Shown here in pieces: positions 7,773 to 30,364 of a stretch of 30,419 nucleotides of DNA. The stretch's first letter is position 1. Each line of letters begins with the position of its first letter. Origin of the DNA: a virus; IMG/VR virus record IMGVR_UViG_3300025168_000410, positions 1-30,419 of that record, one strand, 5' to 3'. A program made the position numbers and the translations under genes. The notes beneath the pieces are model-generated. The model saw only the letters and a program-made list of their open reading frames with translations. It made no database searches and was not told the origin of the DNA.

Positions 7773-8360
7773 CTAACCGAAGTCAATATCCCCCAAGAAA
7801 TCGTTAATGTCGAATCCGGGGATATCTAGAATAGATGAAATGTAGTTCTGATACGATGATGGGGCGTTGACTCCGCCGCTGCTAATCTGCTGTGACCACT
7901 GATGCTGACGCACCGAAGCCTCAGACAGCAAAGCGTTTGCGATGCCCATGCCCATGTTCATGCCCTCGACTCCGCCTTGAATAGCGGCGAGAACAGGGTC
8001 ATCCATCATTACCTGATTAGCGGCGATGACAGCAATCTCCTTGTTGGCAGCGTTAGCCTCTACGATAGCAGCTTGGTCAGCCGCATGAGCAGCGGCTGCG
8101 CTATCGATTGCAAACCCTGAGCCAACTGAGCCACCGCCACGATAAGCTCGGGCGGCGGCCTGAGATCCAGAGAACATAGCCAACTCTCTGGCAATGTTTT
8201 GCCGTTGAGTAGTTTCTTCCAGCTGGATCTGGTCAGTGGTTGCGTTTACGTTTCCCTGCGCAATCTCTAGCCTGCGAAGGTTGCTTGAAGCGGTGGCGCG
8301 GCTGCTTAGTTCAGCAAAGCCGGTAGCCAGTCCGCCAATCTCATTTTGAAATTCTGCCAT
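7773..8360 (-). CDS. gp14-like internal virion protein
   Basis: The protein has 195 residues, the same size as T7 gp14 (196 aa). It begins with a Ser/Ala-rich helix and continues with Gln/Ala-rich helical sequence typical of this family, including an N-terminal stretch describing Leu-Arg-Arg-Leu-Glu and a Gln-Arg-Gln-Asn-Ile-Ala-Arg-Glu segment near residue 55. The middle (residues 76-135) is strongly Ala/Gly-rich with Met-rich patches, and could insert into a membrane after ejection. It starts one base after the tail tubular protein B stop codon, so it is probably translated by coupling. In T7 the equivalent protein is part of the ejected core and sits in the outer membrane. The call is based on size, composition and synteny. 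Confidence 0.75.
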   Translation of the reverse strand: MAEFQNEIGGLATGFAELSSRATASSNLRRLEIAQGNVNATTDQIQLEETTQRQNIARELAMFSGSQAAARAYRGGGSVGSGFAIDSAAAAHAADQAAIVEANAANKEIAVIAANQVMMDDPVLAAIQGGVEGMNMGMGIANALLSEASVRQHQWSQQISSGGVNAPSSYQNYISSILDIPGFDINDFLGDIDFG

Positions 8361-8361
8361 A

Positions 8362-16150: not shown

Positions 16151-17689
16151 TCAGGTCTCCATGTTCATGCCGCCAGAGGCAGCGTTCTGTGCAGCAGCCA
16201 TAGCTGCTTGCTGTTGTGCTTGTTGAGCCTGCATCTGTTGGATCTCTTCGTCGGTTCTAATACGACCAGAAGTTTCCAGACCCATTGACTGCCACCAGTC
16301 ACGGGCGATTGCAGGCCAGTTGAATGCTTGCATTGCATCCTGTGGTAAATTACGCATTCGTTCCATCGCGCCGTCGAGCTTCTCTCGCTCGGCTTCACGC
16401 TGAAGGACCTCAAGACCTGCCTTAATAGACAGCTTAACAAGTCCTAGTTGGTTTTCAATTTCTTCGCTGATCTCTGGGGGGATAAGATTCTGCTTACCCA
16501 TGATGTAGAGTGTCCAACGAACAAGGGGGTCTTGTACCTCACGTCCCGCCATCGACAGGATACCTCCGAGCTGGCCTTCGAGATCCTGAGCATCCATCAC
16601 TACCTCGCGGGCGGTGACTCGTTCAGCGTCTCGCGTAGCACGCTTGAGGAACTTACGGCTAAGGACGCTCTCCCTGTAGACAACAGCTTCCTGTGTTGCG
16701 GCGACTTGCGCTGCGTTCTGGAACTGTAGTGGGAAAACGTCGCCGGGTGAGGTAGGTACAAAGTCACCGTTGACTGAGTCAAGGAGATCCTGTAGCTCGG
16801 TGATACCAGCAGGGTTTACACCCCATCGATACTCCGCGTTAAGCAGGGTCCCGTCGAGCAGCGCCTTTGAAAGCGCGTCAACACATCGGATATCCCCGAA
16901 GTTATCTTCTACGAGTGATGTGCCATAAGCCTCACCAATCATAGACTTCCAACGACAAGGCATCCACCGGCTAACCGGGGTGCTTTCAGGTTTACCAACA
17001 GGCCCGTCTCTGAAAGACTGCGTCTTGGTGATTTCACCGGTAACAGCATCTTTATGTACGTGGGTGTAGAGGGCTTCCCAGTCTTCTTCTTTAGAAAACG
17101 AGGGTGTCTCTGTCCCCGACTTTGCTCGGGACATGTAAGGCTTAAGCTGCTCGTGGAACTCAGGAAGCACCATCTCTTTAATGATGATGTCAACCCAATC
17201 GCCTTCGTGCTTACGGCGGACAACATACTGGTCAGCACGATATAGACGTGCGTTCAAGTCTTCATCCATCTCAAGCATACAGTCACCGACCGTAATCAGG
17301 TGAGCATACAGAAGATTCAGCTGGGATCGTAGGTTGGTTGGCCCAAGTCGTCGCATAGTATAGCGACCAAAACGGGACATGACATCCATAAGCTCTGTGT
17401 CGTCTGTTCCTTCAGGGTTGAAGGGAGTGACGCTGCCAATCTCAAAGATAGGCTGCCCGTTTAGAGGCAGCACTACGCCCATGATACGACTCGCAAGGGA
17501 GTTAATACCATCAGCAGTAGAGCTAGAGTAAGGGACATCAAGGGGTGTGTTAGTTACGCGGCCTTCCCAAGGCAGGATAGATGGGAGCGTCAGCATTGAG
17601 TGCTCGCGCTTTCTATCTAGGAGGGTGACACGGTCACGGTCAAGCTCTTCGTACCACTCCCTTAGGGAGCGTTCATTCTGCGAACTCAT
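16151..17689 (-). CDS. Portal (head-tail connector) protein, gp8-like
   Basis: The product has 512 residues (T7 gp8 is 536 aa). The N-terminus holds the family features: a Leu-Asp-Arg-Lys-Arg helix, then Pro-Tyr-Ser-Ser-Ser-Thr-Ala-Asp-Gly-Ile-Asn-Ser-Leu-Ala-Ser-Arg at about residues 52-67 and a Leu-Pro-Leu-Asn-Gly-Gln-Pro-Ile-Phe motif near residue 73. Later, an Arg-Val-Thr-Ala-Arg-Glu-Val segment near residue 358 and a Leu-Gly-Gly-Ile-Leu-Ser segment are also typical. The C-terminus is Gln/Ala/Met-rich. The ATG has AAGGAG five bases upstream. It forms the dodecameric packaging and ejection channel. Confidence 0.95.
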   Translation of the reverse strand: MSSQNERSLREWYEELDRDRVTLLDRKREHSMLTLPSILPWEGRVTNTPLDVPYSSSTADGINSLASRIMGVVLPLNGQPIFEIGSVTPFNPEGTDDTELMDVMSRFGRYTMRRLGPTNLRSQLNLLYAHLITVGDCMLEMDEDLNARLYRADQYVVRRKHEGDWVDIIIKEMVLPEFHEQLKPYMSRAKSGTETPSFSKEEDWEALYTHVHKDAVTGEITKTQSFRDGPVGKPESTPVSRWMPCRWKSMIGEAYGTSLVEDNFGDIRCVDALSKALLDGTLLNAEYRWGVNPAGITELQDLLDSVNGDFVPTSPGDVFPLQFQNAAQVAATQEAVVYRESVLSRKFLKRATRDAERVTAREVVMDAQDLEGQLGGILSMAGREVQDPLVRWTLYIMGKQNLIPPEISEEIENQLGLVKLSIKAGLEVLQREAEREKLDGAMERMRNLPQDAMQAFNWPAIARDWWQSMGLETSGRIRTDEEIQQMQAQQAQQQAAMAAAQNAASGGMNMET

Positions 17690-17698
17690 AGTCGCTCC

Positions 17699-18244
17699 TT
17701 AAGGGTTGTTCAGTCCCATGTTGAAACTTCCCCATGAGGAGAGGAAGCTGTTCGTCCCAAGGACGTGTGACTGAGGGTCAAAGTTAAATGCTTGTAGGAA
17801 ACCCATAGCGTCTTGCATTGAAAGGCCGCTGCTGCCGGGGACAACCCTGTCAGGTACGTCCTGTAGCGTCTCGAAGACACCACCAAGACCCTGTTGAGTC
17901 TGCCCCACGTTGCCGAGAATAGCAGCAAGATCCTGACCGTCAACGACACCGTCTCCGTTCAGGTCAGCCGCCCCGCTACCACCCCATGAGCCAGTGACAT
18001 AGTCCACGTCGGACTGGTCAACGACACCGTCGCTGTTCATGTCACCACTAAGGGCAGGCATTCTCGGGTCACCGTATCTGTCTAGGTCTGAGCCCGACAC
18101 CCGGTTGATATCCATCGCCATAGATGCCGCCCGTCTGCGGTTAGCTAGACGGCGAGCGTTTTGAGCTCGGATAATACCTTCCTGTTGGTCGGGTTCCGGC
18201 AGACCCCCAACGATCTCCCCCGCCTCGTTCTTGATCTCCGCCAT
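17699..18244 (-). CDS. 181-aa dockerin-repeat (calcium-binding) protein
   Basis: The start at 18244 is chosen because AAAGGAAAG lies just upstream; an in-frame extension to 18373 has no support. Residues 68-88 and 94-114 are two type I dockerin (F-hand) repeats with the pattern D-x-N-x-D-G-V-V-D-x-x-D and a closing Gly. A shorter, possibly vestigial third unit is at residues 45-58 (Asp-Ile-Asn-Arg-Val-Ser-Gly-Ser-Asp-Leu). The N-terminal 44 residues are Arg/Ala-rich and helical, and there is no signal peptide. The gene lies 9 nt before the portal gene, in the structural block, so it may be a virion or assembly protein. Dockerins are known to bind cohesins in cellulosomes, but no cohesin is visible here. 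Confidence 0.85.
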   Translation of the reverse strand: MAEIKNEAGEIVGGLPEPDQQEGIIRAQNARRLANRRRAASMAMDINRVSGSDLDRYGDPRMPALSGDMNSDGVVDQSDVDYVTGSWGGSGAADLNGDGVVDGQDLAAILGNVGQTQQGLGGVFETLQDVPDRVVPGSSGLSMQDAMGFLQAFNFDPQSHVLGTNSFLSSWGSFNMGLNNP

Positions 18245-18473
18245 GTGGGCTTTCCTTTGTGTTCTGTTGTGAGTTGTAAACCGCCCGAAGCTGAGCCACG
18301 GTCTTTCGTATACCATGAGCCGTTGCCGCTGTCTTGAGCGCGTCCTCACCAGTGAAGGTAGGACTGAACTCATACGATTTAATCATGAAGTCAGCCCATT
18401 TCTCAAGCTGTTCTACCAACGCTTTTGAAACGGTTGCTTCAATTAGTGGAAGCAAGTTCTCTGATGATGCCAT
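18141..18473 (-). CDS. 110-aa hypothetical protein, overlapping both neighbours
   Basis: The start at 18473 is chosen because GGAG lies seven bases upstream and the first residues give a good helix (Leu-Leu-Pro-Leu-Ile-Glu-Ala-Thr). Residues 1-65 look helical and soluble, with Trp and Phe on one face. The last 40 residues are rich in Gly, Arg, Ser and Pro and are encoded where the frame overlaps the start of the dockerin gene by 104 nt, so the tail may be constrained by the other frame. The start overlaps the preceding gene by 35 nt. No family is recognised. Confidence 0.65.
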   Translation of the reverse strand: MASSENLLPLIEATVSKALVEQLEKWADFMIKSYEFSPTFTGEDALKTAATAHGIRKTVAQLRAVYNSQQNTKESPHGGDQERGGGDRWGSAGTRPTGRYYPSSKRSPSS

Positions 18474-18915
18474 CTGGTGTCTCCGATTCCAATTCAATAC
18501 CAAGCGATCCGAGTACCACCTTGACAGGTGACACGCAGTTCCACGCTGGCTTGGGCCACATCCTCAGTGCTCTCAGCACGGTTCGGATGGGCTGGCCTTT
18601 CTTGTTCTCAATCTCTTTACACGCGGCCCTGAATTTTTCGGGGCTGTGGTCGGGCATGGACAGGCTCACGCTGAAGAAGTCTCGCTCCCTACCAGCTGCG
18701 TCCATCCACTCGTCGGCAATGTACGCTGCGCCTGTCCCTTTGATGGGTTGATCCCATATCACCCCGTTAAGAATCAGGACAATGTGGGAAAACTCCAGCT
18801 TACGAGCCCAGAACGGGGTTTTTCCAGCCGCAGGGACCAGAGCTATTACCCCCAAAGACACTGGGGTATCATCATCATTCTCTATTACCCCCAATTCTCT
18901 TGTATTACGACTCAT
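18439..18915 (-). CDS. 158-aa protein, possible permuted papain-fold (NlpC/P60-like) hydrolase
   Basis: The ATG at 18915 lies 11 nt inside the end of the exonuclease gene, with AAAGGA upstream. His44 sits in a Phe-Ser-His-Ile-Val-Leu-Ile strand and Cys127 in a Trp-Asn-Cys-Val-Ser-Pro-Val-Lys helix start. This order, His in an early strand and Cys at the N-cap of a late helix, is what is seen in circularly permuted NlpC/P60-like papain-fold proteins. Two short repeats near residues 9-23 (Leu-Gly-Val-Ile) coincide with the GGGGGTAATAG motif in the DNA. There is no signal peptide. A role in cell-wall cleavage or amide hydrolysis is only a hypothesis, and an inactive or unrelated fold is possible. 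Confidence 0.7.
   Translation of the reverse strand: MSRNTRELGVIENDDDTPVSLGVIALVPAAGKTPFWARKLEFSHIVLILNGVIWDQPIKGTGAAYIADEWMDAAGRERDFFSVSLSMPDHSPEKFRAACKEIENKKGQPIRTVLRALRMWPKPAWNCVSPVKVVLGSLGIELESETPDGIIRELASTN
18843..18853 (-). repeat. GGGGGTAATAG motif copy 1
   Basis: The 11-mer on the minus strand is identical to parts of the copies at 18881-18898 and 28262-28279. It lies inside the 158-aa gene. Confidence 0.4.
18881..18898 (-). repeat. AGAATTGGGGGTAATAGA motif copy 2
   Basis: This 18-mer on the minus strand matches the copy at 28262-28279 at 17 of 18 positions. It lies in the first codons of the 158-aa gene, 17 bases after its ATG. Confidence 0.45.
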
Positions 18916-19639
18916 CTGTGTACCATCCTTTAGCTCTAAGATCCATAGGAATCACCTGTTTGGTCTCGCTATCCCAGTCCTCAGACTGGAGGATACGGGC
19001 ACACACGGCCTGCTCCTGTGCTTCTTCATAGGTGTAGCCCGCCTCAAGGTAGGCTTCGACCACCAGCTGGGCACTAGGCCCACCCTCTTGGTCAAGGATC
19101 TTCTCAGCCTTAGCAGGACCGACCCCCTTGATACCACGATAGCCATCGACTGTGTCCCCTGTGAGCCACTGGAGCAGGAACAGGCGGAAGGCTTCGTCCT
19201 CATTGACCCTAACAGGGGCCTCATCTTTCCGGGGGTTGAGATGCCATCCGGGGATAGTTCTCAGGTCCTTGTCAGATGAGATCAGGACGAGGTTCCTAGC
19301 TCTAGGCCCGGTTCCGAGGATGCCCATGATATCATCAGCCTCTAGCTTAGGCAGGGCAATAGTCTTACTCACCGACTCAATAGACTTTCGGGCTGCCCTC
19401 AGCATAGCTGGGGCCTCAGCCGTCCGGTTCGTTTTGTAGGGCGGGTAGGCATCTCTCCTGAAGTTGTCCTCTCTGGAACAGCTGAAGGCAAAGACAGCGT
19501 GCTCGCAGCCTGCCTTCTCTAGCCACTCCTCAAGGTTCTCCTCGATTCTCTCGATCATCTCGAACTGGTTGGCTTGGTTGTCTTGTGCCCATGCGGCCAT
19601 GCTGTACACCAAGTAGTCAGCGTCTACTACTGCAATCAT
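18905..19639 (-). CDS. 5'-3' exonuclease (T7 gp6 / flap-endonuclease family)
   Basis: The product has 244 residues. Metal-binding and structural motifs of the PIN/FEN family are visible: Asp6 and Asp8 in the first strand, Arg-Arg-Asp-Ala-Tyr-Pro-Pro-Tyr-Lys (61-69), Leu-Glu-Ala-Asp-Asp (99-103), Ser-Ser-Asp-Lys-Asp-Leu (121-126), and a helix-three-turn-helix Gly-Asp-x3-Gly-x2-Gly-Ile-Lys-Gly-Val-Gly-Pro (161-175). Such enzymes remove RNA primers during phage replication and degrade host DNA. The ATG has AGGAG nine bases upstream. It follows the dNMP kinase gene directly, as a recycling pair. Confidence 0.94.
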   Translation of the reverse strand: MIAVVDADYLVYSMAAWAQDNQANQFEMIERIEENLEEWLEKAGCEHAVFAFSCSREDNFRRDAYPPYKTNRTAEAPAMLRAARKSIESVSKTIALPKLEADDIMGILGTGPRARNLVLISSDKDLRTIPGWHLNPRKDEAPVRVNEDEAFRLFLLQWLTGDTVDGYRGIKGVGPAKAEKILDQEGGPSAQLVVEAYLEAGYTYEEAQEQAVCARILQSEDWDSETKQVIPMDLRAKGWYTDES

Positions 19640-19640
19640 A

Positions 19641-20243
19641 TTAACATTCTCCTACTGTGTTTACCATTTGAACGGCTAAGCTAGACACAACAGCCTTGAA
19701 GCTCTCTAGATCGTTAGCTGAGTTGTTGGATACGGTGGTGTCGAACAGCTCGTCCTCGAACTCGCCATTCTCATACAGACGAGCCAGCCTCTCACTGTGG
19801 TGCTGCCTCCACTCTGCATCAAGATCCTTGAGCCTGCTCTGAGCAGAGACAAACACAATCTTACCGCTGTACTTCTTGACAAGAGCCAGCTCATTCTCGT
19901 AGCGGATGTCATCGATCAGGACGACCCGCTCGTGCCAGTTCTCTGCACCAATGGTTGATGCCTCTTGATCAGCTATGTCATCAAGCCTCTCGGCCATTAG
20001 GTTGACCCACCACTCAGGGCTCTCTTCTCTAGCTGTCTCACCTACGAACTGACAGAACTTACGATACAGGTGGTCGTACTCGCCATCCTTGACAAAGCCA
20101 AGGGAGTGGGATGCGTCCTTGAGCGGGCCTGCAAAGTGCTCAAGGATTGGTGTGTAACCCTCATCGAACAAGGCTTTTGCCATAGCGATAGCCGCCGTGG
20201 TCTTACCTGCCTTACCCATACCAGCCAATGCAATGATCTTCAT
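19641..20243 (-). CDS. Deoxynucleoside monophosphate kinase (P-loop NTPase)
   Basis: The start at 20243 is set by an AAGGAG seven bases upstream; the longer in-frame extension into the polymerase gene has no such site. The product has 200 residues with a P-loop Gly-Met-Gly-Lys-Ala-Gly-Lys-Thr-Thr at residues 8-16. A Val-Leu-Ile-Asp-Asp-Ile-Arg-Tyr-Glu-Asn-Glu segment near residue 110 is the typical acceptor/Walker B-like part of T4 gp1-type dNMP kinases, and a Leu-x-x-Leu-Asp-Ala-Glu-Trp-Arg segment follows. It would phosphorylate dNMPs released from degraded host DNA for phage synthesis. It lies 11 nt after the DNA polymerase gene and just before the exonuclease. Confidence 0.85.
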   Translation of the reverse strand: MKIIALAGMGKAGKTTAAIAMAKALFDEGYTPILEHFAGPLKDASHSLGFVKDGEYDHLYRKFCQFVGETAREESPEWWVNLMAERLDDIADQEASTIGAENWHERVVLIDDIRYENELALVKKYSGKIVFVSAQSRLKDLDAEWRQHHSERLARLYENGEFEDELFDTTVSNNSANDLESFKAVVSSLAVQMVNTVGEC

Positions 20244-20254
20244 TACTAATCTCC

Positions 20255-22084
20255 TTAGTGGGTCTCTGCCCAAGAGGTTCCGATCTTGTATTCTCCGTCG
20301 AGGGGGCAAGCAAGACGTAGTCTCTTGCCTGCTTCTCGAATGGATTCAACAACCATCTCTCCGACCTCGGTTGAAATATCTGGGTGTGCTTGCAGCTGGA
20401 ACTCATCGTGAGCCCAGAGCATAAAGAAACATTTGGTTCTGTACCAGCCACGCTCTTGTAGCTTGTTGGCTAGAGCGCACATGGCTACCTTCATAACAAT
20501 AGCGCCATCGCCCTGCAACAGGACGTTAAGTGCTGAGTGCTCTGACCTGACAGGCGCGTGCCTGCCATCCAGTAGCGGGATAAAGCTGCGCTCGGAAGCG
20601 CACTGCTTAGTCCAAGCCGTGAGCTTTTCTAGCGCAGGAATCTTAGACATGAAACGATCACGAATCTTACCGCCCTCACGTGAGCCCTTGCCTACGATTG
20701 TACCGATCTTGCCATTGCCTGCGCCATACAATGTGGCGTAGATGAACGTCTTGGCATCGTCACGGGTAGGAAGATCAGCAGCCTTCTGGTTGAGGGTATG
20801 GATGTCGCCATCAACAACCTCTCTAGCATACGCGCCCTTGTCCCACCTAGCTAGGTGATGGCCCAACATACGCAGCTCAAGGCCAGAGGCATCGCCGCCG
20901 ACCATGTGCCAGCCTTCTCTAGGCTGCCAGAGTGAGCGACACTCCCAGCCATAGCGGCCATCGTAACCACGAGCAGTGCCTGTGACCTTAGGCACAGCTG
21001 TCTGGTTAGGCTGGCTGTGCGTAGCTCGTGACGTAGCGCAGCCACAAGGGTTGATCTGGGGGTGGATGATACCGCCGCCTTGTCGGGCACGGGTGCTCCA
21101 GTCAGTCAGATGTTGTAGACGTTTGTCGCACATCTGTATCTTGAGGAGGAGCTTAGCCTCGGGGAACTTAAGAGTCTTGAGTACATCTTCTCCTATGCTC
21201 GGGTTGCCTGCCTCGGTGACAGGGGCTGACCAGCCATACGAATCACGTAGTCTCTCGGAGATCTGCAAAGACGAGCCAGCATTGAACGAGTGCGTCTTGG
21301 TCTTGAGCGGGCCAGCGACCAGCGTCTTTCGGATAGCCGAAGGCGCTGATGATTTGGTCCGGTACTGATTACCCTGATCGTCAGTGTAGTACGACACGGT
21401 CTTGAGTGTCTCGATACGTGGCGGGAACGCCTCATGTAGTTCGTCATAGGCTGTGGCTTTCTCTATCTCTAGTCTCTGGATAAGATCCTCGGCTGAGGAT
21501 ACGTCGATGTGTACACCGGTGTCTTCCATGTCGGACACAATAGTAGCGACACGATGCTCTAGCTTGGACGAGGGAGTGAACTGCTTTGCAAGCGGCGCGA
21601 GCCATAGGAACAGCTTGTAAGACACAAGCGTATCCTGAACACAGTACTCTTCCATCTCTTGTGACCACTGGTCCCAGCCACCATCGTAGTCGCCCTTGTA
21701 ACAGCCAAGGTGATTACCTAGCGCTGCCAAAGAGTTACCGCCATAGGGGTGGTTCTTTCTGTCAGGCCAGAGGAGACGAGCCATGACAAGCGTATCAACA
21801 ACACGCCCCTGTACCTCACCACCGTACAAGCGGCGGAGGACAGGAAGGTCATAGCCTATGATGTTGTGACCGATGACTGCATCGGCAGCCTTGAGCCTGT
21901 CCCACCCCTGCTGGATGGTGTCCTCGTTAGGGTTATTGCGGTAGACGAAAGTAACCTTGGGGTTGTCAATGTCCCGAAGGACCAGCAAGTGTACCCTGCT
22001 GGCCCCCGGAACGGTTTGACCTTTACGATTGATAGTAAGATGGTTAAGGCCATCCGCCTCAATATCGAATACATAACGCGGCAT
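20255..22084 (-). CDS. A-family DNA polymerase (T7 gp5-like)
   Basis: The product has 609 residues, shorter than T7 gp5 (704 aa). The N-terminal 3'-5' exonuclease domain has Phe-Asp-Ile-Glu-Ala-Asp-Gly-Leu (5-12), an Ile-Gly-His-Asn-Ile-Ile-Gly-Tyr-Asp motif near residue 71 and Tyr-x3-Asp-Thr-Leu near residue 150. The polymerase domain has motif A (Gly-Asp-Ala-Ser-Gly-Leu-Glu-Leu-Arg, about 395-405), motif B (Arg-Asp-Asp-Ala-Lys-Thr-Phe-Ile-Tyr, about 438) and motif C (His-Asp-Glu, about 556). All catalytic residues I can see are present, so both activities are expected. The ATG has GGAGA six bases upstream. Confidence 0.97.
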   Translation of the reverse strand: MPRYVFDIEADGLNHLTINRKGQTVPGASRVHLLVLRDIDNPKVTFVYRNNPNEDTIQQGWDRLKAADAVIGHNIIGYDLPVLRRLYGGEVQGRVVDTLVMARLLWPDRKNHPYGGNSLAALGNHLGCYKGDYDGGWDQWSQEMEEYCVQDTLVSYKLFLWLAPLAKQFTPSSKLEHRVATIVSDMEDTGVHIDVSSAEDLIQRLEIEKATAYDELHEAFPPRIETLKTVSYYTDDQGNQYRTKSSAPSAIRKTLVAGPLKTKTHSFNAGSSLQISERLRDSYGWSAPVTEAGNPSIGEDVLKTLKFPEAKLLLKIQMCDKRLQHLTDWSTRARQGGGIIHPQINPCGCATSRATHSQPNQTAVPKVTGTARGYDGRYGWECRSLWQPREGWHMVGGDASGLELRMLGHHLARWDKGAYAREVVDGDIHTLNQKAADLPTRDDAKTFIYATLYGAGNGKIGTIVGKGSREGGKIRDRFMSKIPALEKLTAWTKQCASERSFIPLLDGRHAPVRSEHSALNVLLQGDGAIVMKVAMCALANKLQERGWYRTKCFFMLWAHDEFQLQAHPDISTEVGEMVVESIREAGKRLRLACPLDGEYKIGTSWAETH

Positions 22085-22098
22085 GGTCTCTCCGTTTC

Positions 22099-22386
22099 TT
22101 ACTTAGGGCAATCTTTGTTGCCGGTGCAATCGTAGTTACAGTTGGTGTTAGCGTTGTGAATAAAGAAGTTCACTGCCGTCTGAAGCTCATTGACCTTGGT
22201 GATCAGCGCCTGCATATCTTGGTAGACATCGAAGGGGGAGAACTGGCTCATCTGCCAGCGGGGTTCTTCCTGTTCTGTGACGTTTCTAAGATAAGGCAAC
22301 GGCTTGTACTCAGCCTTAGGCTGTGACTTCGCTGATTCCTTGGGCTCGGGCTTCGAGTTCTTCGTCGAAGGTTGATCCTGTGACAT
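22099..22386 (-). CDS. 95-aa hypothetical protein overlapping the helicase end
   Basis: The start at 22386 has a perfect AAGGAG six bases upstream, although it lies 71 nt inside the primase-helicase gene. The first 35 residues are rich in Lys, Pro, Ser, Gln and Glu and probably disordered. Residues 50-78 form a predicted amphipathic helix (Asp-Met-Gln-Ala-Leu-Ile-Thr-Lys-Val-Asn-Glu-Leu). The C-terminus contains three Cys (Asn-Cys-Asn-Tyr-Asp-Cys, then Asp-Cys-Pro-Lys), which could bind metal. No family is recognised. It sits between helicase and polymerase, so a small accessory replication role is possible. Confidence 0.75.
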   Translation of the reverse strand: MSQDQPSTKNSKPEPKESAKSQPKAEYKPLPYLRNVTEQEEPRWQMSQFSPFDVYQDMQALITKVNELQTAVNFFIHNANTNCNYDCTGNKDCPK

Positions 22387-24100
22387 CTGATTCTCCTTGA
22401 GGTTCTGACCACTCTGCTTCCACCACTCGGCGGGTAGACTGGTCAAGTTTAAGTGTGCCGACAACACCTGTCGCACCGTGGAACCTACCCTTGAGGGATC
22501 GGACCTTAATGATGTGACGTTCTTCTGGGTCATCGGCTTGTTGGTTACGTTCAATAGCAATAACACTGTTAGGTACAGAGCCGAGCGACCCTGACCCACG
22601 AAGGTTGTTCATGGTAATCTGACCACCCTCTTCGGCGGCCTTACCATCCAGCCTGTTGAGCTGTGATACTATGTCAATGTGTACGCCAGTCCGCTGCACA
22701 ATAGAGCGCAGCGTTCTCATCGTCTCATCGATACTCTCTCGCTCACTACCACCCTTGGACATGCCTTGGACAGCAGCCGTGATGTGGTCAATCATGATAA
22801 CATCACAGCCGAGACCGGCAGCCATATACTCCACACGTTGGAGGATACTACCGAACTCGTTAGTGCCGTGATGGTCATAGACATACAGCCCGGTGTGACC
22901 GAACCACTGCTTAGCTTCTTGATACTCCTCGTCAGTGAGGTTGTCAACGAAGCCGAAAGACACAGGGTTGTTACCCTCTGACTCAAGCAGCTGGTTAAGC
23001 TCACGCCCTGCTCTGATCTGACGCACAGGCTTGTTGACTCTGAGAGAGATCAGGTCATCAAGTGTCTCCTGTGGTGTCTCTTCTAGCATCAGCACGCCGA
23101 CCTTACGGCCGTGACAGAGGTGATCATACACCAGCTCACGAACGATGGTAGACTTACCAGAACCTGTGCCAGATGCGATGAGCGTCATCTCACCGCTGCG
23201 CTGCCCCATCAGACCAGCCGTGATGGATCGCCATGGGAATGTCCACTGCGACTGACTGTTAACGTCAGCTGTAGTGATGTCATTCACATGGAGGATACCA
23301 TCAGGCTGGTATGATCTCGCCTCGTAGAGGGCCTGAAGAAGCTGACCGCCTTGGTTAGCCCTAAGCATATCATTGGCATCCTTCATTGGAAGGTGAGCGA
23401 TGCGGGCTTTACCGGGCGGTAGGATCTCGGCACACTTCTGTGCAAAGAGGCGTCCGGGTTCATCACTGTCAAAGCAGAGAACAATCTCCTCGTAACCTGA
23501 GAGGAACTCAAGGTTAGCGCGGATGCTTGCCTCGCTAGACTGAACACCGGAGGGCAAGGAGACAACAGGCCAGCGGTTCTTTTGTAGAGAGGAGATGGTC
23601 AGGCAGTCAATCTCACCCTCGGTGATGACGATGCGCTTGCCTGATCCTGACCAGAGCCACTGACCATAGAGAGGAAGGCTGTCAACATTAGCCTCGCCTC
23701 TCCAACGGAAATCCTTCGGCTTCTGGAACCGAAGGTGCTGGGCCACCATCTCGCCATCCTTCCAATAGTCGGAGACGTGGATGGTAGACCCCTTGTAACG
23801 GGCCATTGCCGACCCGTCAGGAGAATCAAACTTACACAGCCTGTAACCAAACAGGCGGCAAGTCTTCTCATCAATCTTGCGAGCACTGAGCGCTCGGTAC
23901 TCGCCCTCGATAGGACGTGTCAGCTTCTCGCTGATACGTTTGCTCGGCCCTGTCTGTGTGTCACCATGCACATGGTAACCACAGGCAAAGCAGTGCGAGC
24001 CCTTACCTTCTGGGTAGACAACCAAGTTGTCACCACTCTTATCCTTGCCTGCCTTACGGCATTCGGGACAAGCCTCCTTGCGAATTCTTTCTTCGGACAT
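22316..24100 (-). CDS. Fused DNA primase-helicase (T7 gp4-like)
   Basis: The start at 24100 is chosen because GAGGAG lies five bases upstream; a TTG start 15 bases earlier has no support. The product has 594 residues (T7 gp4A is 566 aa). It begins with a zinc-binding domain with Cys11, Cys14, Cys37 and Cys40, followed by the primase TOPRIM core with Thr-Glu-Gly-Glu-Ile-Asp (160-165) and Phe-Asp-Ser-Asp-Glu-Pro-Gly-Arg (210-217). The RecA-like helicase domain has Walker A Gly-Thr-Gly-Ser-Gly-Lys-Ser-Thr at 311-318 and an Ile-Asp-His motif later. It synthesises primers and unwinds DNA at the phage fork. It overlaps the start region of the 79-aa gene. Confidence 0.97.
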   Translation of the reverse strand: MSEERIRKEACPECRKAGKDKSGDNLVVYPEGKGSHCFACGYHVHGDTQTGPSKRISEKLTRPIEGEYRALSARKIDEKTCRLFGYRLCKFDSPDGSAMARYKGSTIHVSDYWKDGEMVAQHLRFQKPKDFRWRGEANVDSLPLYGQWLWSGSGKRIVITEGEIDCLTISSLQKNRWPVVSLPSGVQSSEASIRANLEFLSGYEEIVLCFDSDEPGRLFAQKCAEILPPGKARIAHLPMKDANDMLRANQGGQLLQALYEARSYQPDGILHVNDITTADVNSQSQWTFPWRSITAGLMGQRSGEMTLIASGTGSGKSTIVRELVYDHLCHGRKVGVLMLEETPQETLDDLISLRVNKPVRQIRAGRELNQLLESEGNNPVSFGFVDNLTDEEYQEAKQWFGHTGLYVYDHHGTNEFGSILQRVEYMAAGLGCDVIMIDHITAAVQGMSKGGSERESIDETMRTLRSIVQRTGVHIDIVSQLNRLDGKAAEEGGQITMNNLRGSGSLGSVPNSVIAIERNQQADDPEERHIIKVRSLKGRFHGATGVVGTLKLDQSTRRVVEAEWSEPQGESDVTGSTFDEELEARAQGISEVTA

Positions 24101-24293
24101 TCTTACTCCTCTCAATACGAGTAGTCCAAGTCAGTGTCTCTTCATCAAACGTGGTAACAACTATAGCCTCGGTCGGGTCAACCCCGTGCCGTGACATGAA
24201 TGCAGCAGCTACGTCCTCAGTCTTATTGAGGTGAGCATTGTATGCTCGCTTCATGTGTTGTTTTAGGTAAGCCTCTTCAAATACATTCTTCAT
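24054..24293 (-). CDS. 79-aa hypothetical protein
   Basis: The start at 24293 is set by GGAGG six bases upstream; the longer frame to 24356 has no ribosome site. The protein starts with a basic helix (Glu-Ala-Tyr-Leu-Lys-Gln-His-Met-Lys-Arg), continues with a Val-Asp-Pro-Thr-Glu-Ala-Ile-Val-Val-Thr-Thr strand region, and ends in a basic tail. It overlaps the RusA gene by 17 nt and the primase-helicase by 47 nt. No family is recognised. Its place among replication genes suggests an accessory role, without direct evidence. Confidence 0.7.
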   Translation of the reverse strand: MKNVFEEAYLKQHMKRAYNAHLNKTEDVAAAFMSRHGVDPTEAIVVTTFDEETLTWTTRIERSKNVRRKNSQGGLSRMP

Positions 24294-24687
24294 CGATATC
24301 CTCCACGATGAGTTCAATACTACCAGTGTCTGAGAATTTTTTAACAACTTCTCCAAGCTCTGTCACTTGCACGTCATCTCTCCATACCAACTCATTGCAT
24401 GAGTCAAACAACGCCTTAAGATAGTTATCGATATCCCCACGTGGGTAGGAAAGTTTCGATGTCTTTGGTTTCTTTACCAGAAACGTAGCGCCGACACGCA
24501 GCTGATCAGAGAGGAGGGGGCGGAATCCCTTTCGGAACTCCGCTACCTCCTCCTGAAAAGCCTTGCGATATGAAGAGTATGTCTTCCCGTAGTAGGTTCC
24601 ATACTTCGATACCCGTGGGCGCGAAGCAGGTACAGGTGCAGTGTCAAACTGGAAGTAGTGCGTGTTGCCTTCCTTCCTGTACTGCAT
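24277..24687 (-). CDS. RusA-type Holliday junction resolvase
   Basis: The product has 136 residues (E. coli RusA is 120 aa). An N-terminal Pro-Ala-Ser-Arg-Pro-Arg-Val-Ser motif (20-27) and the catalytic segment Arg-Gly-Asp-Ile-Asp-Asn-Tyr-Leu-Lys-Ala-Leu (83-93), followed by Asp-Asp-Val-Gln-Val (104-108), give the family's acidic triad and lysine (Asp85, Asp87, Asp104 or 105, Lys91). RusA proteins cut four-way DNA junctions. In T7 this slot, between the gp2.5 ssDNA-binding protein and gp4, is held by endonuclease I (gp3), so RusA probably does the same debranching before packaging. The ATG overlaps the stop of the ssDNA-binding protein gene (TAATG). Confidence 0.9.
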   Translation of the reverse strand: MQYRKEGNTHYFQFDTAPVPASRPRVSKYGTYYGKTYSSYRKAFQEEVAEFRKGFRPLLSDQLRVGATFLVKKPKTSKLSYPRGDIDNYLKALFDSCNELVWRDDVQVTELGEVVKKFSDTGSIELIVEDIDEECI

Positions 24688-25346
24688 TAGACAAGCCCAT
24701 CCAAGAGGTCATCGGTGTCATCAGAGAACGTAGCTCCCTCTGCCTCGGGCAGCTCATCAGTAGTGGATGACTCCTCCACGAACGATGACTCACTACCAAA
24801 GGTAGAGCCTGCGCTTGCGGCGAAGTTACACTTGAGCTGCTGAACAGCGTTGAGGTATGCCTTGATACCGTAGTCACCGTTGATCTCCCAGCCCACAAAG
24901 CGAGCCTCGACACGGCATGTGTCGCCGCCGTAGATCTGGGTGTCTTCTTCCTGCCCCTTGGCATTGAAAGTCTTGACGGTGTTAGGCACTGACTCGCCGT
25001 TGCGTACCTGCATAGCGTTCGCAGTGAACTCCATGTAGGGTGCGCCGACTGGGTCACCAGTACGCTCGTTCATCTTAGCATCGACAACCTTCATAGGAAT
25101 CTTGCCGTCCTTCTCAGGCACACCCAGCTCAGCTGTGTGCAGCTTACGAAGAGCCTTGATCTTAGTGCTGAAGTCCTTGAACTCAGCGTCATCCTTGTCG
25201 AAGACAAGCGTGATACGGTAACGGTTGCGACCATAGGTCGAGTCGTCGGGTGATCCGATGTAACAGTATCGGGCAGTGCCAACAGGGGTGCGGACAAGGC
25301 CGCCTTCAAGGCGCGTCATGTTTGCGCCGCCGGTTCGTTTAGCCAT
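24687..25346 (-). CDS. Single-stranded DNA-binding protein (T7 gp2.5-like)
   Basis: The product has 219 residues (T7 gp2.5 is 232 aa). The central region (about 20-160) is beta-rich with an OB-fold look, including Tyr-Arg-Ile-Thr-Leu-Val-Phe-Asp-Lys-Asp-Asp near residue 43 and a Tyr-Gly-Gly-Asp-Thr-Cys-Arg-Val segment near residue 138. The C-terminus is a long acidic, flexible tail rich in Glu, Asp, Ser and Thr ending in Asp-Asp-Leu-Leu-Asp-Gly-Leu-Val, typical of SSBs that recruit polymerase and helicase. Position before the resolvase and the primase-helicase matches T7 gene 2.5. The start overlaps the previous stop (TAATG). Confidence 0.88.
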   Translation of the reverse strand: MAKRTGGANMTRLEGGLVRTPVGTARYCYIGSPDDSTYGRNRYRITLVFDKDDAEFKDFSTKIKALRKLHTAELGVPEKDGKIPMKVVDAKMNERTGDPVGAPYMEFTANAMQVRNGESVPNTVKTFNAKGQEEDTQIYGGDTCRVEARFVGWEINGDYGIKAYLNAVQQLKCNFAASAGSTFGSESSFVEESSTTDELPEAEGATFSDDTDDLLDGLV

Positions 25347-25549
25347 TAGACATTCTCCTTCTGCAAACTCTGTGGAATACTTGGCATAGTAGTACTAGCT
25401 TTGAGCAGCCGACTAGCCAAGTGTGATGTGAGGGCAAGACCGTATACAGAACGATCGTGCCACTCGGTAATATCTGCGCCTGAACTAATGACTGACTGGA
25501 CAATACCAGCAGCCCGGATCCGCGCTTCGCGTTCAATGTTAGAGGTCAA
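25346..25549 (-). CDS. 67-aa hypothetical protein, probable TTG start
   Basis: No ATG fits the start. A TTG at 25549 overlaps the dockerin gene stop in a TTGA junction and has GGGAG six bases upstream, so I chose it; another TTG at 25570 would add seven residues but lacks a ribosome site. The product has a helical N-terminal half (Glu-Arg-Glu-Ala-Arg-Ile-Arg-Ala-Ala-Gly-Ile-Val) and a Leu/Ser/Ala-rich second helix. It ends at the ssDNA-binding protein start (TAATG). No family is recognised. Confidence 0.6.
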   Translation of the reverse strand: MTSNIEREARIRAAGIVQSVISSGADITEWHDRSVYGLALTSHLASRLLKASTTMPSIPQSLQKENV

Positions 25550-26016
25550 TATGTTCTCCCGTAGTTCCAAAGTAAAAGGACTAAGTCACGGCCATCAACA
25601 GTACTGTCATCATTTAGATCACAAGACTTAGACTGATCTGTGATAGGGCCATAACCCCACCACTGCATAAGTATAACTAGATCAACACCATCAACCTCCC
25701 GGTTGTTGTTGATATCAGGACACCGCCGCATCACTGTGTTAGTGAATGTCTCGCAGCTAGGGTCATCCTCTAGGGTAGTGCAGTCAATCCAATCAACACA
25801 CATACAAGAGCAGTTGCCCCAGTTTGATAGTTGTATTGCAAAGTCAGCACCGTCAACAATACCATCATCATTGATGTCAGCAGCGTTGTTAGTAGTACCA
25901 AACCTGCCCAACATAACAGCAACATCAGAGCCGTCAATTACTTCGTTGGTATCTAGGTCACCTGCGCAGGATGGGCATGACCCAAGTGCTAGGGATAGTA
26001 GGAAAGACGATATCAT
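25546..26016 (-). CDS. 156-aa secreted Cys-rich protein with four dockerin (calcium-binding) repeats
   Basis: The N-terminus (residues 1-13) is hydrophobic and leads to a Leu-Gly-Ser-Cys at residues 11-14 that could be a lipobox, so export or lipid anchoring is likely, although it lacks a basic start. Four type I dockerin F-hand repeats are visible at 20-40, 47-67, 101-121 and 133-153, each with D-x-(D/N)-x-(D/N) followed by Val/Ile-Asp-Gly-x-Asp and a closing Gly. The pairs are separated by a Cys-rich linker; the protein has nine Cys in all, fitting an oxidised, extracellular protein. The ATG overlaps the phosphoesterase stop (ATGA). A host-surface or superinfection-exclusion role is speculation. 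Confidence 0.88.
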   Translation of the reverse strand: MISSFLLSLALGSCPSCAGDLDTNEVIDGSDVAVMLGRFGTTNNAADINDDGIVDGADFAIQLSNWGNCSCMCVDWIDCTTLEDDPSCETFTNTVMRRCPDINNNREVDGVDLVILMQWWGYGPITDQSKSCDLNDDSTVDGRDLVLLLWNYGRTY

Positions 26017-26759
26017 AGTGCGCGTCCCTTCAGTAGTGGGTGGATAGGATAGTTATCTCTCCCGAACCTCTCGCCCTTACCACTAGGCATGGCAATAAAG
26101 CGTGTGTCGGCAGGGTTTTCTGTGTCGATAAACCCACAACCAAGCACGCTCTTCTTCTTGCACGCCTTACCGTAAGAGAAGGCATACAGTCTATCGTCTA
26201 CTAGGCAGCCAGTATCCATACCAAACCAACGCTTGGTTGGGTTAGCAAACCAACGGATACCACCAGCTGAGTGGATGTGCCCCATGACTGAGGACATGCT
26301 CATCTCTCGGGCTAGGTTAGCAGCGGGCTGTAGCCCTGACCTGCCTGTGCCGTGAGTAAAGTACACGGCGTTGATACCTGTACCGATGATGACCTCGTCA
26401 ACCCATGACCATCGGGGTGTCTGCCACACACTGGCATAGTCCTTCAGGTATGACCCCGGCACACCAGCTGACTCAGCCATACGCATAGGCCGTGCATCAT
26501 GGTTGCCGATGGTAACTACCGCATCAGGGTAGGCATTGTACCAGCGCTGCACCCCTTCGAGGGCAAGCTCGTACTCATCCTTAGGGCCGGGTGCGGAGGC
26601 GTGCTTAGTCCATGTCGAGATGCCGTGGTGATCCACGATATCTCCGATGAACACAACACTGTCAGGTTGATTCTCTTGGGCAACCCAGTCAACAAAGTCC
26701 ATACTACCGGGGTGAGCAACAGGCTCATGAAGGTCAGGTATCACTAGAATTCTTGGCAT
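26013..26759 (-). CDS. Calcineurin-like metallophosphoesterase
   Basis: The product has 248 residues and all the family's metal-binding motifs in order: Asp9-Leu-His11, Gly39-Asp40 with Asp43, Gly85-Asn86-His87-Asp88, His136 in Thr-His-Gly-Thr-Gly, and Gly160-His161-Ile-His163. It should be a soluble cytoplasmic phosphatase or nuclease with two metal ions. The substrate is not evident; related phage enzymes have been linked to nucleotide or RNA/DNA ends. It starts 26 nt inside the end of the DUF4406 gene and ends in an ATGA overlap with the dockerin gene. Confidence 0.9.
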   Translation of the reverse strand: MPRILVIPDLHEPVAHPGSMDFVDWVAQENQPDSVVFIGDIVDHHGISTWTKHASAPGPKDEYELALEGVQRWYNAYPDAVVTIGNHDARPMRMAESAGVPGSYLKDYASVWQTPRWSWVDEVIIGTGINAVYFTHGTGRSGLQPAANLAREMSMSSVMGHIHSAGGIRWFANPTKRWFGMDTGCLVDDRLYAFSYGKACKKKSVLGCGFIDTENPADTRFIAMPSGKGERFGRDNYPIHPLLKGRAL

Positions 26760-27213: not shown

Positions 27214-27515
27214 TCCCATTCCTCCTCTTCGGGTTCGGTGATACGCATCTCAAGGATGCAGCATCTAGGTATAATTAAGTAAGGGCCTACCTCTGTCTCA
27301 TGGTAGTTCATAGTGACTACGATGTGGTCGTCTGACTCGATCAGCAGGAAGCCTGCCGTCTTACAGAGAAGATCCTTTTCTGTTAAAGCATTACATTCTT
27401 TGAGCACCTCTTCACGGTTGTTCCATGCAGAGTTGCACTCGGTTGTGCTGTCAATCCAACGCACGTAAACTTGTTGTAGTTCAGGCAAAGATGTACTCCG
27501 ATTGAAGAACCTCAT
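27210..27515 (-). CDS. 101-aa acidic-tailed hypothetical protein
   Basis: The frame starts 35 nt inside the RNA polymerase end and stops in an ATGA overlap with the next gene. The protein has a helical first half (Leu-Pro-Glu-Leu-Gln-Gln, then Arg-Glu-Glu-Val-Leu-Lys-Glu) and beta-like second half, with two adjacent Cys (Arg-Cys-Cys-Ile-Leu) and an acidic end of Glu-Pro-Glu-Glu-Glu-Glu-Trp-Glu. The ribosome site is weak (AAGGGA at a long distance), so coupling to the polymerase is likely. No family is recognised. It sits where T7 has small host-takeover genes. Confidence 0.72.
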   Translation of the reverse strand: MRFFNRSTSLPELQQVYVRWIDSTTECNSAWNNREEVLKECNALTEKDLLCKTAGFLLIESDDHIVVTMNYHETEVGPYLIIPRCCILEMRITEPEEEEWE

Positions 27516-29952
27516 TGAGATCGAAGTTCCCTTGTGCTGGTGGGTCGCCGGGATCTTCTCCCGTCTGCATCTCCACCTGTTGTCTAAAGTCTTCTAACAC
27601 GTTGCCACTGTACAGGTTTACAAACTGCTGGCGCAGCACATCCCTGAGGGTATCGACATCACACGCATGAGTACCGAATGAGTCGTGGATCATGAGCCAT
27701 GAGTCAACACCCTCGTCAACACCAGCAACAACAGTCATCATCAGATGAGTAGCGTCGAGGGAGTGTACAAAGTTAGGAGGTAAGCCTGTCCTCTGCTTGG
27801 ATGCACGCACCCCACCCTCACGGTGAGGTGACTTGAAGATGGTCTCTCCATTGAGACACCTGACCCTCGTATCCTTGAGCTGGCTGTATGGGTGACGCAC
27901 CAAGAAACCACTAGGCGTGCGCCATTGCAGTAGAACATCGTGCTTGTTAGCCACAGTGGCACAGTGACGCAGCCAATCCATAGCCTCGGCAGCGCCTGTG
28001 ATGTTCTCTCGGATAGCTTCCCATATCTTCTTGCCCAGATATCTAGAGGCAGCGAACTGGTTAGATGCCCAGTCAACATGACCATCCTCGATGAGGTTAT
28101 CTCTGAGCCCCTGCTCTGTCACACCATACGGGTACGTCATCGTACCCCGCTTGGTAACCTTGCGTGTGATCTGGTAGTCAAGCCACTGCTGAGGCAAGGA
28201 CAACAGGGTTGTGCCTACGTCTGGCTTGTCTGACCACATGCTTCCAAAGATTTGTGGGCCTTCTATTACCCCCGATTCTATCGTCCTACAATCCTCATTA
28301 ACCTTACATTCTACAGCATCAGACACGTTCTGATACGGATCACTAGGTTCAGGTAGGTCTGTAAGGTTTACAAGCACTGCACCTTCTGCATCTCTAAGCA
28401 TAGCAGAGAAGTGCTGAAGACCTGAGTTGCTACCGTCTACGTTGACAGGCAGGCAGCTGATGTAGTTCTCTACACCACCCTCATAGTTACGGGCTGCGAT
28501 GATGTCAGCTACCGTAGCTAGTGCCTGCCATGGTTCGTCAGCATCAGACCAGAGACGCTTGCCTACCTCAGACAAGGGGTCGAAGTCAACAGGTGCGTCG
28601 AGCATCAGCTTGGTGCTGAACTCGACACGCTTCTGGAATGATACCTTGTCAACACCCCAGCAGTTAGACAGCCTGATCATAAGCCAACGCATACCACGCT
28701 TGCCTAGTTTCTTACCGTCACCGAAGCTAAGCAAACCGCGTGCCATGTCCGGCCCCTGCGGCTGCAAGAATGCCGGGATAGGATACAGCCTAGACCTGAA
28801 GTCGTACTGCCAAGGGAAGAAGAAGACACGGCGACGATACTTAACAGCTGTCGCCATAGTCTTGAGGAACTGTATCCTCCTGCCGACAAGCCGTGCGTTC
28901 TCACGGTATACCTGCTCTGCCTTGACCCGCCACTCCCTGTCATCCTCGACATCAGGCCGGGGTGGGATAGGTAGATTCTCAGCAGGTGGCACACCCATAC
29001 CACCACCATGCAACCAGACATGCTGCATGGTAGACAACACCACCGGGTTGATGGTGTATGGTGTCTCCTGTAGTACATTGATAGCACGGTAGGGGATGTC
29101 GCCGTGGTCACGTGGGTCACCTGAAGAGGTATCACCTAGCCCTGACTTGACCATGTTATGGTAGCGTGAGAGCACAGTGTACCCACCGTTGACATCATTC
29201 GACCACCGGTTAGGCGGTACAATCATAGGCTCGTACCGTGGTGACAACAGTTCCAGGTGATCATCCATACGGCTGATACTTTCCATTGCATCATCAGTCA
29301 GGTAGATCTCCTTGCGAGAGAAGGGCTTGCCATGCGGGCCACGCCCTGTGACAACACGTGTGCCGAAGATACCACTGTCAGTGACAGCTAGGTCCAACAG
29401 CTTAGCACCGATCAAACGCTTGCGCTTGATACCCCACCGATCAGTACAATCCTGATCGATCTTCTTGAGGGCAGCACGCAGGGATCTACTATCCCACCGT
29501 TTGATGCGTCTCTCCATCACAGCCTTGAGCTTAGGCGCTTCACGTTTGAGTATGGTGAAGTGTGTCTCCTGCTCAATGTCTCTGCCTATCTTAGTGACTG
29601 CCTGCTGAGGGGAGGTGATACCACCATCTGCCATCAAGTCTATCATCGACATGATGGAGGCAGCAGCAAGGACACGTGCATCCATGTAGATGAACACGTG
29701 TCCCCACTGATTCCCTCCCCGCATACCTCTACCAGCCACGACCTTGGAAGTCTCTGCCTCAATAGCGGACGTAAGATTCTCTGCTGCCAATCCAATAAGC
29801 GAACGACATGATGCCCGCTTGGACATCGGTTGTGCTTTAGTATTCTCCTTGTATCTTAAGATCCCTGCGTCTAGAGACTTGATCTCTAGATCTTCTTCTT
29901 CAACAAACAGCGCAGCTTGTTGCTGCGTGGTCAGCGAGTTCCAATATCCCAT
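27481..29952 (-). CDS. Single-subunit (T7-type) DNA-directed RNA polymerase
   Basis: The start at 29952 is chosen for TGGAGA four bases upstream; a longer frame to 30039 overlaps the previous gene without support. The product has 823 residues (T7 RNAP is 883 aa). Motif A is Asn-Val-Asp-Gly-Ser-Asn-Ser-Gly-Leu-Gln-His-Phe (about 503), motif B is Lys-Val-Thr-Lys-Arg-Gly-x-Met-Thr-Tyr-x-Tyr-Gly (about 597), and motif C is His-Asp-Ser-Phe-Gly-Thr (about 754). The C-terminal end (Leu-x-Ser-x-Tyr-x-Phe-Ala) matches the family. The specificity-loop region is not like T7, so promoter sequence cannot be read across. It transcribes the phage's middle and late genes. The gene holds the third copy of GGGGGTAATAG at 28262-28279. 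Confidence 0.97.
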   Translation of the reverse strand: MGYWNSLTTQQQAALFVEEEDLEIKSLDAGILRYKENTKAQPMSKRASCRSLIGLAAENLTSAIEAETSKVVAGRGMRGGNQWGHVFIYMDARVLAAASIMSMIDLMADGGITSPQQAVTKIGRDIEQETHFTILKREAPKLKAVMERRIKRWDSRSLRAALKKIDQDCTDRWGIKRKRLIGAKLLDLAVTDSGIFGTRVVTGRGPHGKPFSRKEIYLTDDAMESISRMDDHLELLSPRYEPMIVPPNRWSNDVNGGYTVLSRYHNMVKSGLGDTSSGDPRDHGDIPYRAINVLQETPYTINPVVLSTMQHVWLHGGGMGVPPAENLPIPPRPDVEDDREWRVKAEQVYRENARLVGRRIQFLKTMATAVKYRRRVFFFPWQYDFRSRLYPIPAFLQPQGPDMARGLLSFGDGKKLGKRGMRWLMIRLSNCWGVDKVSFQKRVEFSTKLMLDAPVDFDPLSEVGKRLWSDADEPWQALATVADIIAARNYEGGVENYISCLPVNVDGSNSGLQHFSAMLRDAEGAVLVNLTDLPEPSDPYQNVSDAVECKVNEDCRTIESGVIEGPQIFGSMWSDKPDVGTTLLSLPQQWLDYQITRKVTKRGTMTYPYGVTEQGLRDNLIEDGHVDWASNQFAASRYLGKKIWEAIRENITGAAEAMDWLRHCATVANKHDVLLQWRTPSGFLVRHPYSQLKDTRVRCLNGETIFKSPHREGGVRASKQRTGLPPNFVHSLDATHLMMTVVAGVDEGVDSWLMIHDSFGTHACDVDTLRDVLRQQFVNLYSGNVLEDFRQQVEMQTGEDPGDPPAQGNFDLNEVLQSEYIFA
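28262..28279 (-). repeat. AGAATCGGGGGTAATAGA motif copy 3
   Basis: This 18-mer within the RNA polymerase gene matches the copy at 18881-18898 except for one base. Its function is unknown. Confidence 0.45.
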
Positions 29953-29965
29953 TGAGTCTCCAGAC

Positions 29966-30364
29966 TTAGGCTCTGACGTGAGTGAATCCAACGAACACAA
30001 CTTGGTGGTTGTCAAGGTCAACACCTGCTGCCTCAACATGTGAGCTGAGGATGTTCATGAAGTGACCGTACCTGCACGTCCTGATGCAGTCAGGCTTGCG
30101 ACCATTCAGCACACGCTGAGTAGGGATCGCAACGGTACGTCTCTGGAACACGTTACCACCGCTCGACCAGTTAGGTAGAATACCAACGGCCACGTTCACC
30201 ATCATCTGACCACGGTCAGCGTCCCAGTATGACAGGCTGTTGATCGTTCCGACAGTGAGTCGGGGGTAGATCTTGACACCATTGATATGGTTCAGGTTGT
30301 TGGTGTTGTCTTCGGGACAGATCATGGTGTTCAACAGTTCACGGTTATCAGTATCAATCATCAT
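29966..30364 (-). CDS. 132-aa hypothetical early protein
   Basis: The start has two consecutive ATGs (30364 and 30361) with GAGGAG about eight bases upstream of the first. The product has an acidic Asp/Asn-rich N-terminus, then mixed alpha/beta sequence with a Tyr-Trp-Asp-Ala-Asp-Arg-Gly segment near residue 46, a Trp-Ser-Ser-Gly-Gly near residue 66, and basic residues from about 74-98 including two Cys (Cys92 and Cys96 region). It ends 13 nt before the RNA polymerase start. I recognise no family. Small proteins before the RNA polymerase in this phage group are often host-takeover factors, but nothing here shows that. Confidence 0.7.
   Translation of the reverse strand: MMIDTDNRELLNTMICPEDNTNNLNHINGVKIYPRLTVGTINSLSYWDADRGQMMVNVAVGILPNWSSGGNVFQRRTVAIPTQRVLNGRKPDCIRTCRYGHFMNILSSHVEAAGVDLDNHQVVFVGFTHVRA

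Follow-up and report, generated by a model that had tools for sequence, protein, structure and literature searches.

Two dockerin-type genes in a T7-like podophage

The window analyzed in this study is a linear virus record of 30,419 bases (IMG/VR record IMGVR_UViG_3300025168_000410) with its genes on the minus strand, two of which, here called A and B, encode dockerin-type calcium-binding repeats. The window also holds T7-like genes for a single-subunit RNA polymerase, a primase-helicase, a DNA polymerase, a gp2.5-like DNA-binding protein, a RusA resolvase, an exonuclease, portal, scaffold, capsid and tail proteins. The gene order is shared with a relative of 44,230 bases that stems from another sample (IMGVR_UViG_3300029448_000093) and additionally holds lysis-region genes and a T7-type terminase. 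In the window and this relative, the single-subunit RNA polymerase and the T7-type portal, scaffold, tail and terminase genes are collinear, as in T7-like podophages (Autographiviridae). The window covers the larger part of the genome of a T7-like podophage of marine origin. A first-pass annotation, made from the letters alone, had named both the phage type and the two repeat-bearing genes; the RNA polymerase, portal, scaffold, capsid and tail genes bear out the former, and both open reading frames (ORFs) were confirmed at the coordinates given there, on the minus strand, with dockerin-type loops.

Gene A (17699..18244, minus strand) encodes 181 amino acids (aa) with one internal dockerin-type pair and lies directly upstream of the portal gene. 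The pair comprises residues 67-114 (17903..18046, minus strand), as delimited by profile match, loop reading and structure model. Its calcium loops, DMNSDGVVDQSDV at residue 68 and DLNGDGVVDGQDL at residue 94 (18005-18043 and 17927-17965, minus strand), are 26 residues apart.

Gene B (25546..26016, minus strand) is located among early and replication genes; its start codon overlaps the stop codon of the upstream phosphoesterase gene (ATGA). The 156-aa product has a signal-peptide-like start and two dockerin-type pairs separated by a Cys-rich linker, with calcium loops at residues 20, 47, 101 and 133. The hydrophobic N-terminus, MISSFLLSLALGSC (25975..26016, minus strand), is read as a probable signal or lipoprotein-like peptide. 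The first pair (25810..25968, minus strand; profile match, model confidence (pLDDT) 77-91) is bounded by cysteines and ends in NWGNC, which resembles the WGxC end of many planctomycete pairs. The second pair (25549..25722, minus strand; profile match) forms the extreme C-terminus, 11 residues past its second loop, a placing that is also found in planctomycete proteins.

The profile search proposed in the first-pass annotation places B above the cut-off of 22.9 bits of Pfam Dockerin_1 (PF00404; 38.2 bits, E 1.7e-9, in two stretches), while A is borderline just below it (21.7 bits, E 2.4e-4; 24.5 bits with neighbouring matches in frame). Against the NCBIfam GC-type dockerin NF041540, B scores 34.9 bits and exceeds the curated cut-off of 29, of which A falls slightly short (26.9 bits). 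The wording DLNGDGVVDGxDL, originally ascribed to both proteins, fits A best, whereas the loops of B, e.g., DLDTNEVIDGSDV and DINNNREVDGVDL, are looser.

Loop geometry, predicted fold and type of dockerin

All loop pairs, one in A and two in B, are of the dockerin type, and the ligand positions 1, 3, 5, 9 and 12 read from the sequence are kept in 6 of 6 calcium loops. In the structure models of both proteins the pairs are confident and the remainder is of low confidence. The pair of A (pLDDT about 77-84) matches best the solved structure 2y3n_B, with a template modelling (TM) score of 0.86 by target length and a root mean square deviation of 0.8, and B has the same best match (TM 0.78 by target length); Foldseek gives a probability of 1.00, but E-values of 0.017 (A) and 0.046 (B). 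The alignments behind the models included dockerin pairs from fetched planctomycete loci, and hence the models are not independent of that likeness. The pairs of A and B are predicted to adopt the dockerin fold.

Like the cellulosomal type I dockerin (PF00404), the pairs of A and B consist of two calcium loops with helices, and 2y3n_B is part of the type II cohesin-dockerin complex of B. cellulosolvens. In contrast to cellulosomal type I dockerins, the linker between the phage loops is shorter and a Ser/Thr pair at loop positions 10-11 is missing (QS, GQ, GS, GA, GV, GR instead); no cohesin was seen in the phage genome, unlike in the cellulosomal setting. A cellulosomal identity was set aside on account of the differing recognition residues and linker. 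The phage modules share the short pair, WG ends and flanking cysteines with the GC-type dockerin, which in the sampled planctomycete loci usually forms the C-terminus of a large secreted protein. Unlike these, the pair of A lies in the interior of a probable virion protein, while B consists of little beyond its two pairs. A C-terminal Gly-x-Cys, by which we read the GC type, is found in none of the three: the first pair of B ends in GNC but is internal, the second is C-terminal but ends in YGRTY, and the pair of A is internal. A hypothetical 'planctosome' of freshwater planctomycetes, a host complex, likewise involves cohesin and dockerin modules outside cellulose degradation; it differs from the present case in that no phage part was described (PMC6461901).

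Conservation and selection

Both genes keep their genomic place in the 44,230-base relative, A also with the same start, at identities of 97% (A) and 92% (B). Ratios of nonsynonymous to synonymous substitution rates (dN/dS) between window and relative are 0.056 for A and 0.125 for B; the portal and DNA polymerase genes have ratios of 0.054 and 0.044. A and B are under purifying selection. Since both are conserved with low dN/dS in a contig from another sample, they are not chance ORFs. Furthermore, two fragments of record set 3300001450 are identical to the window in A and B.

Resemblance to modules of Phycisphaerales

An alignment of the phage pairs was used to scan 84,980 species genomes, with confirmation by a pair of another phage (L009). 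About 70 of the best 80 loci listed stem from records titled Planctomycetota, and among the matches listed these are mostly Phycisphaerales or Phycisphaerae. In the fetched set, the best tblastn match of the pair of A to a planctomycete locus reaches 65% identity (E 2e-17), which answers the comparison with planctomycete genomes suggested in the first-pass annotation; a pair from a Phycisphaerales genome titled ALOHA is 59% identical. Loops in the fetched planctomycete loci are mostly spaced by 26-27 residues, compared with 26 in A and 27 in the first pair of B, and 75 of 89 planctomycete pairs are located at a protein C-terminus, as is the second pair of B.

To reduce circularity, we counted an exact codon pattern, D-[LIMF]-N-[GDNS]-D-G-[VIM]-V-D-G-x-D. 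Within the order of a Phycisphaerales metagenome-assembled genome it occurs in 36 of 201 genomes, with up to 53 copies in one, while the reversed pattern occurs in none of the same 201; four of the 201 had already been met through dockerin matches. No copy was found in two samples, of 199 and 149 genomes, each centred on a gut genome rich in dockerins (82 and 118 domains). These samples were meant to represent Bacteroidota and Bacillota, but count as a single control because their genomes are largely shared. As read from the sequence, A and B are worded like Phycisphaerales modules. The wording had been called typical of Planctomycetes, and this is upheld in the narrower form of the order Phycisphaerales.

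Along this line, the module wording makes a marine Phycisphaerales bacterium the likely host, short of proof. RNA polymerase relatives, all distant, were found in 9 of 392 Planctomycetota genomes and in 5 of 251 genomes of the order. A 51-kb contig of a genome in the Planctomycetota sample (G251:C370, loci L247-L249) carries a T7-like provirus that encodes a tyrosine integrase and is flanked by host-like genes. Thus, T7-like phages enter this phylum. As phylogenetic link to a host the provirus was rejected and is not used as proof, because it is no closer to the window than proteobacterial phages.

Proposed roles of A and B

Gene A occupies the slot immediately ahead of the portal gene, which in T7 and its relatives is that of gp7.3. 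In T7, gp7.3 is an ejected protein of the tail channel whose C-terminal loop is anchored by the nozzle (PMC11784390). A ends in GLNNP, similar to the GLNIP ends of the slot proteins of LUZ100, HTVC200P and others. At 181 aa it is longer than the usual length of about 60-120 aa, and it has no PHROG match. The motif G[LVI]N[IVLAN]P occurs in 18 of 50 slot genes before the portal in T7-like phages, compared with 15 of 902 ORFs overall. Homology of A to gp7.3 is nevertheless no more than a possibility, as the motif, enriched in these slot genes, is missing from the closer clade.

Our findings suggest that the phage borrows its host's own surface-attachment module. We propose that the podophage acquired the compact, calcium-binding dockerin module that forms the C-terminus of secreted proteins in Phycisphaerales (Planctomycetota); the lineage of its host is the probable donor. 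B would be exported during infection, judging from its signal-like N-terminus and its replication-gene setting, and may occupy host sites that normally receive dockerin-bearing proteins. It could thereby mask or displace surface proteins and exclude further phages. A, encoded in the gene 7.3 position, would be part of the virion and come into contact with the same sites on the envelope at adsorption or ejection. By analogy, the role proposed for B, a small exported phage protein on a host surface site, would be akin to that of Llp of phage T5, a receptor-blocking lipoprotein. For the model as a whole, comprising the uptake of a Phycisphaerales module, a Phycisphaerales host, B as exported site-occupier and A as virion protein, we estimate a probability of about 0.45. 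Its functional part, with B exported onto host dockerin-binding sites and A meeting the same sites from the virion, is more doubtful. Neither the exported appearance of B, nor the position of A, nor the presence of such modules in other phage lineages (see below) had been noticed in the first-pass annotation.

Several observations weigh against this model. The species-genome scan began from a phage-derived pattern, and its confirming query was another phage's pair. In a phylum-wide sample the codon pattern occurs in only 1 of 246 genomes, the centre genome itself, so that the wording is characteristic of only part of the phylum. The usual basic residues are missing from the N-terminus of B, which is not a standard lipobox, as no basic residue is present among the first seven. 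At the C-terminus of A, the slot motif has no counterpart in 67 same-slot genes of closer relatives, and hence the likeness to gp7.3 is kept as one of position only. Classical cohesins (PF00963) were identified in 9 of 141 Phycisphaerales genomes and not in the dockerin-rich centre genome; because of this rarity, the partner of the phage dockerins is probably not a cohesin. A search with 20 kb of the window against the 392 Planctomycetota genomes, whose spacer coverage is not established, gave no match resembling clustered regularly interspaced short palindromic repeats (CRISPR) and short matches at noise level only. A repeat array was present in 0 of 20 fetched loci, and several of the short matches fall on dockerin codons. 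Nor does a near-identical provirus in these 392 genomes link the phage to any planctomycete. Judged by its core genes, the phage is as far from the planctomycete provirus as from phages of Roseobacter, Desulfovibrio and Rhizobium, with 40% identity to the provirus and to Proteobacteria phages alike for the DNA polymerase and 31-32% for the RNA polymerase. The planctomycete host put forward in the first-pass annotation is thus backed by the module wording, but neither by the CRISPR search, which failed to provide the link sought, nor by the core genes. Since no CRISPR link was found, the host is one that we infer.

Among the alternatives, the strongest is that the dockerin pairs are no more than generic units of calcium binding and folding, with no host partner; in calcium-rich sea water, that of A would stabilize a virion protein, and the likeness to planctomycete modules would be convergent. 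Such loops are short and readily duplicated, virion proteins of unrelated aquatic phages, among them those of the baseplate, contain one or several copies, and the scarcity of cohesins in Phycisphaerales fits as well. We consider this explanation unlikely, as the likeness reaches past the loops to the helices, which end in LLGxWG, to the loop spacing of 26-27 residues and to the cysteines on either side, B passes the curated GC-type cut-off, and the wording is missing from dockerin-rich gut genomes.

Somewhat less probable still is a host shift, by which the dockerin genes stem from planctomycete DNA while the present host is another marine bacterium, e.g., a proteobacterium. The best cultured relatives of several core genes do infect Proteobacteria, and the missing CRISPR link to Planctomycetota is in accordance with such a shift. 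However, the purifying selection on A and B implies their current use, T7-like proviruses occur in Planctomycetota, and the different gene with a dockerin-like end in the sister podophage L297 is consistent with repeated contact with such hosts. That B is a passenger, i.e., a host secreted-protein gene without a role in infection, is very improbable: it is laid out like host proteins (signal, pair, Cys-rich linker, C-terminal pair), but its start codon overlaps the upstream gene, its place is kept in two samples, and its dN/dS is 0.125.

Dockerin-type modules in other phages

A viral scan with an alignment of dockerin pairs revealed dockerin-type repeats in unrelated tailed-phage contigs, T4-like and other, often in virion genes. 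Among T4-like contigs, baseplate-wedge-like proteins carry them in L109 (5097-11543, about 29 dockerin matches) and L110 (5865-8321). A further T4-like contig, L009/L023, has them at 1932-3518, and in L009 the ORF adjoins baseplate-like genes. In L124 (7602-8069; also in L123 and L126) a 155-aa ORF with a dockerin-type end belongs to the head cluster of a T4-like phage, where the portal and head maturation protease genes lie on either side of it. L117 has a module downstream of the terminase gene, and L125 exceeds the GC-type dockerin cut-off.

One or two repeats each were also observed in small, coiled-coil-like ORFs of the phage contigs L125 (7827-8600), L131 (7758-8795), L119 (7593-8426), L128 (7704-8417) and L132 (7767-8162), the last of which shares record set 3300001450 with the two fragments identical to the window. 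L118 (7143-8216), part of a 129-kb virus record, contains a protease-like ORF with a dockerin pair. The candidates L111-L114, L120 and L130 resemble secreted proteins of the host type, a subtilase among them, and were not counted as evidence for phage dockerins.

The sister podophage L297 encodes a 204-residue protein (7777-8391) with a dockerin-like C-terminus, CDLNKDSFIDSADLTMALAEW...GSWGPCN; in its first part it is homologous to a protein encoded by L108 (2856-3290), another podophage. This common domain is beta-rich and looks cohesin-like by eye; it has no Pfam match. In 155 more distant portal relatives a dockerin regular expression found no pair, the only exception being a single degenerate loop in L297 detected by tblastn.

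The occurrence of dockerin modules in T4-like and other tailed-phage contigs indicates that they may be a recurrent phage trait. We tentatively propose that Phycisphaerales phages of T7-like, T4-like and other tailed types repeatedly and independently acquired the host dockerin-type module to engage or block a protein-anchoring system. The settings would be a gene before the portal gene and a secreted protein in the T7-like phage, baseplate-wedge insertions or head-assembly-cluster ORFs in T4-like phages, and a place near the terminase gene in another tailed phage.

None of 50,697 GenBank phage records matches A, B or a planctomycete pair, although a low-complexity filter may hide short repeats; this agrees with the earlier statement that no T7-like phage with two such proteins is known. 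In the literature on phage dockerins, only a carbohydrate-binding-module comparison in an E. coli phage was found (PMC5967307). In the collections searched, we found no earlier description of a phage bearing a dockerin of the planctomycete type. If our model is true, the module could serve as a sequence marker for finding marine Phycisphaerales phages in viromes, and the host surface-anchoring system would be important enough for phages to imitate. The binding targets of the many planctomycete dockerins would become testable, cohesins being rare there. To our knowledge, phages of planctomycetes are hardly known.

Neighbouring genes

The portal (head-tail connector) gene next to A maps to 16151..17689 (PF12236, E 2.3e-42; phrog_449), and the T7-type single-subunit RNA polymerase gene to 27481..30039 (phrog_414, E 5e-197), both on the minus strand. 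Directly upstream of B lies the metallophosphoesterase gene (26013..26759, minus strand; PF00149, phrog_221). The second gene downstream of B encodes the gp2.5-like single-strand DNA-binding protein (24687..25346, minus strand; PF10991, phrog_112), and a 74-aa ORF is found in between (25346-25570). Compared with the 44,230-base relative, the major capsid gene (12805-13884) has an unusually high dN/dS of 0.316 at low dS, a combination which suggests a mosaic history.

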